A DNA stretch of 64,000 nt from Nocardioides aurantiacus (GTDB lineage: Bacteria; Actinomycetota; Actinomycetes; Propionibacteriales; Nocardioidaceae): assembly GCF_003752505.1 (NCBI RefSeq), contig NZ_RKHO01000001.1, positions 3,596,001-3,660,000 of the forward strand, given 5' to 3'. Below, in pieces: positions 19,423 through 20,875 of this stretch (position 1 is the first letter of the stretch; the number at the start of each line of letters is the position of its first letter). The translations under genes were made by a program, and so were the position numbers. The notes under the pieces are model-generated. The model was not told where the DNA came from, searched no databases, and saw nothing but the letters and a program-made list of their open reading frames with translations.

Positions 19423-20689
19423 GGGCACCTCCGGGGCAGGGGACGGCCCCATCCTCCCGGCTCGTCCTGAACGCCCGCTGAAGGCGGGGGCGGCGGGTGG
19501 GCGGCGGGTGGCGGCGGGCGGTGGGCGGCGGGCGGTGGGCGGTGGGCGGTGGGCGGTGGGCGGCGGCGTATCGCATGTAACGCGGGGTTATTGCATGTGA
19601 ACAAGGCCGGTCCGGGCCGCGACGCTGCACAGCACCGCACCAGATGACCGGTGCGGCGCGATCAGGCCGAGCGCGCCTGGGCGTCGTACGCCGGATGCGC
19701 GCGGCCTGCTCGGCCAGGTGGGACGGCAGCCGGGGACCGAACCGTGACCGGGTGACCAGCTCCTCGGCGGCCACCCGCCGCATGGTGCTGTCCCGGGCGC
19801 GGCCGAGCAGGTCGTCCCAGTGGACGCGCGACATGCCGAGCCCCTCGCCGCAGATCGCCACCTCGCGTGCCCGAAGAGCACGGAGCGCCTCGCGGGTCGA
19901 CGTGGCGTAGCCGCCCTCGCTGCGGGGCAGCAGCTTCTGCAGACCGTCGGCCTCGACGAGGTGGCAGCCGACCCGCAGGTCGGCCCAGTAGACACGACCA
20001 CCCACGGCGATCGGCCACCCGACGTCGATGTCGTCGAAGCCCATGTCGACCAGCAGCAGCCGGGCGAGCGACTCGACCGCGGTCTCGGCGCGGTCGTCGC
20101 TGAGCTCGAGCGCCTGGCGCACCGTCCTGACGCCGGGCCAGGACCACATCACCCGGAGCTCGCGCTCCAGCTCGTGCAGGGGTACGCCGCCCCACCGCAC
20201 GGCATCGATCGCCACGACCCCCGTCTCCCGACCGTGCTCACGGGCGAGGTCGAGGGCGGTGCGCGCGGGACCCGTCACGGGGACACCACCGACGACGTGC
20301 TCGTCCCCCAGGTCGATGCGCGTCAGGTGGTGCTTGACCCCGTGCTCGGTGCGGCTGCCGCCGACCCCGAGGCGAGTGACGTGACTGAGCTGGTGCTGCG
20401 GCCGCAGCAGCGGCACGCCCAGGGCACGGGCCGCCGAGTCGTGGCTGAGGACGTGCTCCTCTGTCATCATCAGGTGCGCGGCGAGGTCACGCAGTGACGC
20501 GCGCTCCTCGGCGGTGGTGTCCTCCCACCGGCGGCGTTCGGCGTACACGCCGCGCCGCACGACGACCCAGGGACCGTACGTCGCCAGGAGTGCGCGCAGC
20601 TCGGAACGGCCGTAGCCCGCCGACTGGCACTGGGCACGGGTCACGAGCCCGTGCTGGGAGACAGCGAGGGAACGGAGAGCTGGGCGCAC
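18989..20689 (-). CDS. AbiEi-like winged-helix protein with putative Vsr/DUF559-like nuclease domain (reading frame runs on without a stop)
   Basis: Residues 1-60 (LAVSQHGLVTRAQCQSAGYGRSELRALL, then GPWVVVRRGVYA) match the winged helix of type IV antitoxin AbiEi-family proteins. The middle (VLSHDSAARALGVPLL, VTGPARTALDLAR) is also typical. Residues ~200-275 carry E206, D237 (VYWADLRVG) and E246/D248 (HLVEADG), an arrangement like the D and ExD of the PD-(D/E)xK fold in DUF559/Vsr-like proteins; no clear lysine follows. The supported part is about 335 residues (roughly 19680-20689). The frame then passes through repeat copy A and the G-rich tract and overlaps the response-regulator gene, closing only at 18989, so the annotated C-terminus is probably not native. 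The start is uncertain: GTG 20689 gives the usual N-terminus, GTG 20785 is an alternative. It is bracketed by inverted repeats A and B. Confidence 0.6.
   Translation of the reverse strand: MRPALRSLAVSQHGLVTRAQCQSAGYGRSELRALLATYGPWVVVRRGVYAERRRWEDTTAEERASLRDLAAHLMMTEEHVLSHDSAARALGVPLLRPQHQLSHVTRLGVGGSRTEHGVKHHLTRIDLGDEHVVGGVPVTGPARTALDLAREHGRETGVVAIDAVRWGGVPLHELERELRVMWSWPGVRTVRQALELSDDRAETAVESLARLLLVDMGFDDIDVGWPIAVGGRVYWADLRVGCHLVEADGLQKLLPRSEGGYATSTREALRALRAREVAICGEGLGMSRVHWDDLLGRARDSTMRRVAAEELVTRSRFGPRLPSHLAEQAARIRRTTPRRARPDRAAPVIWCGAVQRRGPDRPCSHAITPRYMRYAAAHRPPPTAHRPPPTARRHPPPTRRPRLQRAFRTSREDGAVPCPGGAHACARRGRRGAVGALAAGGAGGRGVRGRRGPRRDRRAVAGPRAPVRRHRARPDAAGHQRLQGLRDAARGAELDARADAHGQGRRVGPGRGARHRGRRLPHQAVLVPGPRGAAACGGPAGCARAAHAARGRRPAARPGGATGLAW
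19488..19568. repeat. G-rich tandem tract of about 7-base period
   Basis: About eleven imperfect units of GGTGGGC or GGCGGGC stand head to tail, the cleanest being four consecutive GGGCGGT units near 19530-19560. The plus strand carries many closely spaced G-triplets and could form a G-quadruplex. It lies 66 bases upstream of the response-regulator start and directly abuts inverted-repeat copy A. Confidence 0.7.
19573..19646 (+). repeat. 74-base dispersed repeat, copy A (plus orientation)
   Basis: Two conserved boxes separated by 22 variable bases. Box 1 begins GCATGTAACGCGGGG and continues TTATTGCATGTGAACA. Box 2 is TGCACAGCACCGCA followed by CCAGATG. Copy B (20802-20875) is the same element inverted and of identical length; copies C and D lie near 28.7-28.95 kb. 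Within box 1, TAAC and GTTA can pair around GCGGG, flanked by two CATG palindromes. Confidence 0.85.
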
Positions 20690-20801
20690 GCGAGCAGGCT
20701 CGACCCCGCGTCGGGGCTGCGCCACCCCCCGGCGTACGCCTGTGGAGAAAGCGCGGTCATGGCCGGCCTGTGGACGGCAGGTCACCCATGTTGCCGCCGC
20801 T

Positions 20802-20875
20802 CATCTGCTGCGGTGGTGTGCACCCAGAACGGGCGGACCGGCCTTGTTCACATGCACTAACCCCGCGTTACATGC
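20802..20875 (-). repeat. 74-base dispersed repeat, copy B (inverted relative to A)
   Basis: Reverse-complement copy of A: it matches box 1 at all but one position (GTTAGTG instead of GTTATTG), shares the first 12 bases of the variable segment (AAGGCCGGTCCG region) with copy A, and diverges afterwards. Box 2 reads TGCACACCACCGCA then GCAGATG. Its outer end is 40 bases beyond the fba stop codon. Confidence 0.85.

Follow-up and report, generated by a model that had tools for sequence, protein, structure and literature searches.

The window, a stretch of 64,000 nucleotides covering positions 3596001-3660000 of the 4.06-Mb genome of Nocardioides aurantiacus (G000), contains a gene predicted to encode an AbiEi-type winged helix joined to a Vsr/EDxHD-type nuclease domain (conserved part 19664..20689, minus strand, likely GTG start at 20689). 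The gene has a response regulator and a fructose-bisphosphate aldolase (FBA) gene as neighbours and lies between two repeat units of about 74 nt each. Unit A (19574..19647, plus strand) carries box 1, CATGTAACGCGGGGTTATTGCATGTGAACAAGG, outermost and box 2 inward, and its variant is also dispersed in the own genome, while unit B (20801..20874, minus strand) faces unit A and is 98% complementary to it over 43 nt. A gene-less pair is formed by a left unit at 28723..28796 (plus strand) and a right unit at 28876..28949 (minus strand), each containing an exact match of the 17-mer. This 17-mer, CATGTAACGCGGGGTTA, occurs at 19574 (+), 20858-20874 (-), 28723 (+) and 28933-28949 (-), and its expectation in the shuffled window is 0.01 on average. 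Flank-to-flank alignment of the AbiEi gene scored 114, whereas a score of 45 was reached by 0 of 1368 1-kb placements chosen at random in the window; placements that touched the two known pairs were excluded from this set as well as from a further set of 537. The facing copies of equal length (74 nt) around a single gene and the inverted gene-less pair near 28722-28950, both reported in a first-pass annotation, are hence real. The same annotation had described two conserved boxes per repeat. Both are present, but box 2 (..CAGCACCGCACCAGATG) is not a separate element; it represents a decayed inverted box 1, as is evident from other copies in the genome that form complete palindromes of 74 nt with the end ..TAACACCGCGTTACATG. 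A complete copy folded better than its shuffles (z -5.8), and for the three window units that were tested folding was no better than for shuffles. Elsewhere in the window (56256-56495), repeats spaced in a register of 39 nt showed 62-86% similarity over 84 nt.

The structure model of the window protein (pLDDT 92.8) matched the entries 6y8q, 3r3p and 1cw0 in structure comparison; in the model, an AbiEi winged-helix fold is combined with a nuclease domain of the Vsr/I-Bth0305I type, and the assignment of the putative nuclease half rests on this fold. The residues E206, D237, E246 and K252 are invariant in an alignment of 33 proteins and D248 is nearly so, which makes these residues candidates for the EDxHD pattern. 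Excluded from this alignment were L195 (a broken gene), L226, L230, L231, L232, L239, L244, L246, L247 and L249, as well as L214, L215, L216 and L225; since the latter four repeat L103, L105, L102 and L193, the sets of 36 and 51 loci described below overlap in genes. PADLOC AbiEi models matched all 33 aligned proteins, and the Pfam AbiEi_4 score of the window protein was 20.5, which is below the curated cut-off of 25. No Pfam model for DUF559 or a nuclease matched any of the 33 proteins, NCBIfam gave no match, and the search with a sequence profile against the PDB returned nothing credible. The proposed combination of an AbiEi winged helix with a Vsr/DUF559-like domain thus stands with regard to the modelled AbiEi and Vsr-like folds, but the DUF559 part found no counterpart in Pfam. 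In G000 the reading frame lacks the stop codon of its relatives and stays open to 18989. The whole frame (window 18989-20785) has 598 aa and runs through unit A, antisense to the response regulator.

Three known groups of proteins can be compared with this gene product. First, the AbiEi fold is common to the window protein and the AbiE type IV toxin-antitoxin systems. According to the accessible part of the report on Streptococcus agalactiae, the AbiEi antitoxin binds inverted repeats and autoregulates through them (PMC7319586). However, the response regulator and FBA are the neighbours of the window gene, which therefore has no adjacent AbiEii nucleotidyltransferase toxin, and its product differs from the antitoxin by the modelled nuclease-fold fusion and by the dispersed repeats that bracket the gene. 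Second, the catalytic fold is, as judged from the model, common to the window protein and the EDxHD homing endonuclease I-Bth0305I. A homing endonuclease of this fold has been described, in the part of the source available, to dimerise on a target that spans nearly 60 bp (PMC3943268), which is near the size of the repeat unit. In contrast to I-Bth0305I, the DNA-binding half of the window protein is AbiEi-like, the units are many, dispersed and non-allelic, and the gene is situated between two ordinary genes, outside any intron or intein. Third, the mismatch-repair context of the Vsr endonuclease, considered here together with TnsA, is not seen at the window gene. The complete agreement with the PADLOC models might also be taken to indicate a phage-defence nuclease, for which the palindromes would serve as self-recognition or decoy sites. 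We regard this as very improbable, because the neighbouring genes include no toxin and the defence label derives from the shared AbiEi fold.

The repeats are widely dispersed. The N. aurantiacus genome contains 30 matches with up to three mismatches, compared to 0 for the reversed pattern; the match at 491036 is probably due to chance. They belong to two variants, F1 (CATGTAACGCGGGGTTA) and F2 (CATGTAAATCGGGGTTA). Some form 74-nt hairpins and others stand alone; facing pairs either enclose a gene or are gene-less and then measure 215-227 nt. F2 brackets a second AbiEi gene of this genome (39% identical) with an exact inverted repeat of 44 nt. The pattern TGTAACRCGNNGTY gave 578 matches versus 16 for the reversed control in 29 of the 32 genomes behind the named loci, a full hairpin being counted twice. 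Per genome, 3-58 matches were obtained in 24 of the 29 and 0-1 in the other five, in which the bracketing arms are of other sequence or absent. G045 has 44 repeat matches, and other repeat-bearing genomes have 2-58 pattern matches, numbers from which strict patterns may miss variants. Many plus/minus pairs among the matches listed are 56-57 nt apart and therefore correspond to hairpins of 70-71 nt; in G212 the distance is mostly 95-96 nt, again among the matches listed. Neighbouring units less than 2.5 kb apart, counted by eye in the complete unit lists of G000, G001, G009 and G045 with hairpins excluded, are inward-facing in 17 of 18 cases, once in the same direction and never outward. The units lie in intergenic gaps, at many printed loci directly 3' of a stop codon as seen by eye. 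Hence, the many dispersed copies in gaps, often as inverted pairs, that had been predicted for Nocardioidaceae genomes were found in the form of hairpins, facing pairs and singles.

With regard to their chromosomal position, all G000 units found fall into two ranges, 4731 to 1152879 and 3160837 to 4016964, which lie in the half of the chromosome that surrounds dnaA (3898452); none was found from 1.153 to 3.161 Mb. A similar distribution restricted to the origin side was observed in G181 and G193, but not in G045. An origin-linked function common to all units was rejected for this reason.

The next point concerns how regularly AbiEi genes are bracketed. One scan of named genomes, mostly of Nocardioides, provided 36 relatives, and 30 of these reached a bracketing score of at least 45 with facing copies of their own variant. 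Six relatives missed this score: in L230 the pattern detected both units, which makes it the 31st carrier, L226 has one unit, the truncated match L244 and L222, which is situated at a contig end, have units on one side only, and L231 and L247 are without units. Of the 51 AbiEi homolog loci scored in the genus and six more genomes of the family, 35 reached at least 48 and 16 remained below; the genus search contributed 30 returned loci among the matches listed, and 51 of the 53 returned loci were scored after exclusion of L200 and L212, the second pieces of split genes. Other AbiEi paralogs proved unusable as negative controls, because many of them are bracketed by unrelated repeats themselves, and random placements together with gene-bounded genes were therefore used for the null instead. 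None of 537 window placements reached 48. The corresponding null from a G009 stretch, which contains such genes and in which placements touching them were kept, gave 9 passes in 900. In the gene-bounded control 7 of 231 genes scored at least 45. Three of these are AbiEi genes that the searches had already returned, a fourth looks like AbiEi by eye, and the remaining three are the bracketed enoyl-CoA hydratase and, as named by eye, an IS30-like gene and another one. The expectation that AbiEi genes are found beside the repeats far above chance is well supported by these numbers (30/36 versus 0/1368 and 7/231). The high G+C content of the genome is all that could speak for chance repeats or ordinary gene duplication; the shuffles, random placements, reversed patterns and gene-bounded genes agree in refuting this explanation, which we consider practically negligible. 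Ordinary duplication had already been argued against in the first-pass annotation.

A close ortholog exists in 5 of 24 genomes of the genus, i.e. in G000 and in four others at 51-62% identity, and all five are bracketed, each with a different repeat variant. Within G000, six of the seven AbiEi homologs scored by the searches are bracketed and the seventh, L348, is not. L263, L264, L265 and L266 (G000 261477, 3945982, 1303056 and 1535157) are four further AbiEi homologs that lie between inverted repeats differing in sequence from these variants. At L106 (G013) an AbiEi fragment stands beside the aldolase without bracketing units, and at L195 (G193) AbiEi was matched as two pieces with the units still present.

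The dispersed copies often correspond to the gene of the same genome. They resemble the arms of their own gene in G045, G009 and G181, at two of three G007 loci examined and at the one dispersed G174 locus examined. In G134, a dispersed hairpin has GGG versus CCC in the arms of the gene, a difference of three bases, and a second variant without a matching gene was found at four loci in G001 and one in G007. Moreover, G180 has units but no close cognate, G013 only the fragment and G011 a weak homolog, and by the pattern used G006 has only two units, both belonging to its own gene. Protein and unit identity were correlated at the 27 of the 33 loci for which a unit was found by pattern (Mantel 0.41, 0/2000 permutations, kinship not removed). 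Related proteins sit in related hosts; the correlation is consequently consistent with co-inheritance and is not by itself a proof of recognition. At least five matches of TGTAACGCNNNGTT were present in four of the five genus genomes with a close ortholog versus 1 of 19 without (Fisher p 0.002, the genomes being kin and not independent), and this single genome is G013, the bearer of the gene fragment.

Facing pairs also enclose genes of other types, namely the enoyl-CoA hydratase (ECH), a HAD hydrolase and a GNAT-containing frame, which ruled out that the bracketed gene is always AbiEi. ECH is located next to the same acyl-CoA dehydrogenase at 23 of 23 loci, one per genome, and the 24th genome has a weak match without it. 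A unit of this pattern is present at 4 of the 23 syntenic loci and absent from 19; hence, units were acquired at a locus where ECH is resident. In G001 and G007 the locus bears a single hairpin of the CTCCGTT variant. A bracketed ECH acting as mobile cassette was ruled out by the complete synteny, whereas the comparison for HAD spans G000 and G009 only. A lipoprotein gene (recognised by eye) lies at L251:9699-10841 in G009 between facing CCGGGCAGTT-type repeats, similar to the AbiEi locus L266.

The diversity of enclosed genes and the inward orientation of nearly all neighbouring pairs would be compatible with MITE-like ends that are moved by an unrelated transposase, the AbiEi gene being captured cargo or a defence gene. 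However, ECH is resident and not cargo, repeat and AbiEi similarity correlate, and a separate, unrelated repeat belongs to each of the different AbiEi subfamilies, so that the same cargo would have to be re-captured repeatedly, which is hardly expected. Moreover, a target-site duplication is not evident by eye at the flanks, although the palindromic CATG at both ends could hide one of 4 bp; G006 has GCTG instead of CATG. No clean insertion junction was found at the loci compared, and the target site was unreadable from empty-site junctions, which are too diverged. Taken together, a MITE-like origin appears improbable.

Comparisons between related species revealed how gene and units change. Between G000 and G009 the AbiEi proteins are 62% identical and the adjoining FBA 94%; the corresponding values are 56% and 93% for G007, and 59% (over 255 aa) and 88% for G001. 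Elsewhere, G000 and G009 are 99% identical in the acyl-CoA dehydrogenase and 95% in ECH. The AbiEi locus adjoins FBA in G009, G007 and G001 according to BLAST, and in G006, G181 and G193 as seen by eye, therefore the gene seems to be inherited in place. With regard to the alternative that the A-B arrangement is fixed at one locus in all relatives, the position beside FBA is common to several of them, but the gene occurs in only 5 of the 24 genus genomes. At the common ECH, HAD and AbiEi loci the units show the same changes from G000 to G009 (GGGG to GGAG, CATG to ATTC). In several other G009 units GGAG is kept and the second block ATTC is replaced by CATC, CTTC or CGTC, and one hairpin end has GGTG, hence the change of units is not perfectly concerted.

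Units are also gained or lost between species with flanks of about 90-96% identity. The G000 units at 4731, 3970438 and 4016964 are missing in G009, and the G009 unit at C2:206525 is opposite about 15 bp in G000. As expected beforehand, the presence or absence of units thus varies, here between the related species G000 and G009 and among the ECH loci. At the site of the gene-less window pair (28669-28951, compared with L270, L276 and L274), YidC-like genes recognised by eye are present in G009 and G001, and G007 has a single hairpin of its own variant. The loss of the YidC-like gene coincides with the presence of units at this site.

It might be argued that the units are operators, bidirectional terminators or chromosome-organising sites under selection, with AbiEi as a co-evolving DNA-binding regulator and without any mobility. 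Such a role would fit to the intergenic position of the units, many of them directly past stop codons, to the clustering of the G000 sites around dnaA, and to the units of G000 and G009 that stay put at the ECH, HAD and AbiEi loci while changing alike; autoregulation through inverted repeats, as reported in the accessible text on the S. agalactiae antitoxin (PMC7319586), would provide a precedent. Nevertheless, units come and go between flanks of about 90-96% identity, a unit of this pattern is absent from most syntenic ECH loci, the putative nuclease site is invariant in 33 proteins, and regulation does not need facing pairs around a gene. Furthermore, a consensus scan detected no sigma-70-like promoter or T-tailed terminator at 19400-21000, which is weak evidence in this phylum. 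A purely regulatory function is hence regarded as unlikely, although it is to be taken more seriously than the phage-defence and MITE-like readings.

Instead, the AbiEi-nuclease and its own palindromic elements of about 70-74 nt probably form a cognate pair that became similar to REP/RAYT systems by convergence. REP elements and RAYTs are known from tyrosine transposases; as described in the accessible parts of two reports, the RAYT gene lies between two inverted repeats, repeats and enzyme co-vary, the enzyme evolves faster than its neighbours, and cognate repeats are dispersed where the gene is present (PMC2817692, PMC3116915). Inverted bracketing is found here as well, though it is not universal (30/36 and 35/51), and the AbiEi-nuclease likewise displays repeat-enzyme co-variation, fast enzyme evolution and co-occurrence of gene and repeats. 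The differences concern the enzyme, which combines the AbiEi winged helix with a modelled Vsr/EDxHD-type nuclease fold in place of HUH/Y1, the unit, which is one palindrome of 70-74 nt compared to the short REP, and the copy number, with tens per genome here and usually more than 100 there. A Y1/RAYT transposase (PF01797) was found in none of 16 repeat-bearing genomes, and the control was positive in 5 of 14 genomes (E. coli and four others). The initial proposal of a RAYT-like unit with a different enzyme is consequently supported by bracketing, dispersal, co-variation and the lack of Y1 in these 16 genomes; the checks suggested in the first-pass annotation gave mostly positive results, and its reading is widened here. 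The AbiEi-nuclease system, probably built on a hydrolytic nuclease, is not a member of REP/RAYT, but it probably works like REP/RAYT, and it looks like an unrecognised counterpart of these repeat systems.

We infer that the protein acts on the repeats, namely by binding, cutting and spreading them. A dimer might read one palindrome with one winged helix per arm, and its specificity could come from the variable block after GTTA. The EDxHD/PD-(D/E)xK-type domains would then cut or nick near the centre of the palindrome or at the insertion site. Break repair might subsequently copy units into intergenic gaps and convert old units to the current variant, while the gene itself could be kept by vertical descent, and the two units around it might protect or mobilise it. 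Such a sequence of cleavage and repair would account for the spread of units as well as for their joint change at fixed places.

The arrangement is of general interest, because much of the REP/RAYT signature, i.e. bracketing repeats, co-varying repeats and a fast-evolving gene kept in place, is associated here with an unrelated enzyme fold. If the proposed action is true, the REP lifestyle arose at least twice, nuclease-driven copying of short hairpins could be tested directly on a defined 74-nt substrate with a single small protein, and genes that are labelled only AbiEi antitoxin in family libraries would obtain a role. A link between AbiEi-nucleases and dispersed repeats was absent from the titles and abstract openings searched, and AbiEi and DUF559 together appeared in no paper of the literature covered; in both cases subscription papers and preprints were outside the scope.

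Finally, bracketed AbiEi genes are not restricted to this family. A relative at E <= 1e-10 was detected in 65 of 246 phylum genomes sampled, G000 included. Among the matches listed, 13 of 30 loci of the phylum sample were bracketed at scores of at least 48 and 17 were not; one of the 13, L278, is the F2 gene of the own genome again. Unrelated palindromes bracket many of the other AbiEi paralogs as well, and two of these repeats recur within the G009 stretches examined. It is slightly favoured in our view that there is a phylum-wide class of AbiEi-nucleases, each with its own hairpins, in which a hydrolytic EDxHD/Vsr-type nuclease in place of a tyrosine transposase would make, spread and homogenise these elements by cutting and repair-driven copying, and that REP-like repeats thereby had a second origin in bacteria. 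For the hairpin of L279, 400 kb sampled from G041 contained one copy, compared to two matches in 10 shuffled controls. In G367, which belongs to another family, a 56-nt hairpin brackets an AbiEi-like gene (L285, L308-L327); within 400 kb sampled from the 3.4-Mb genome it recurs six times, with one match in 10 shuffled controls.
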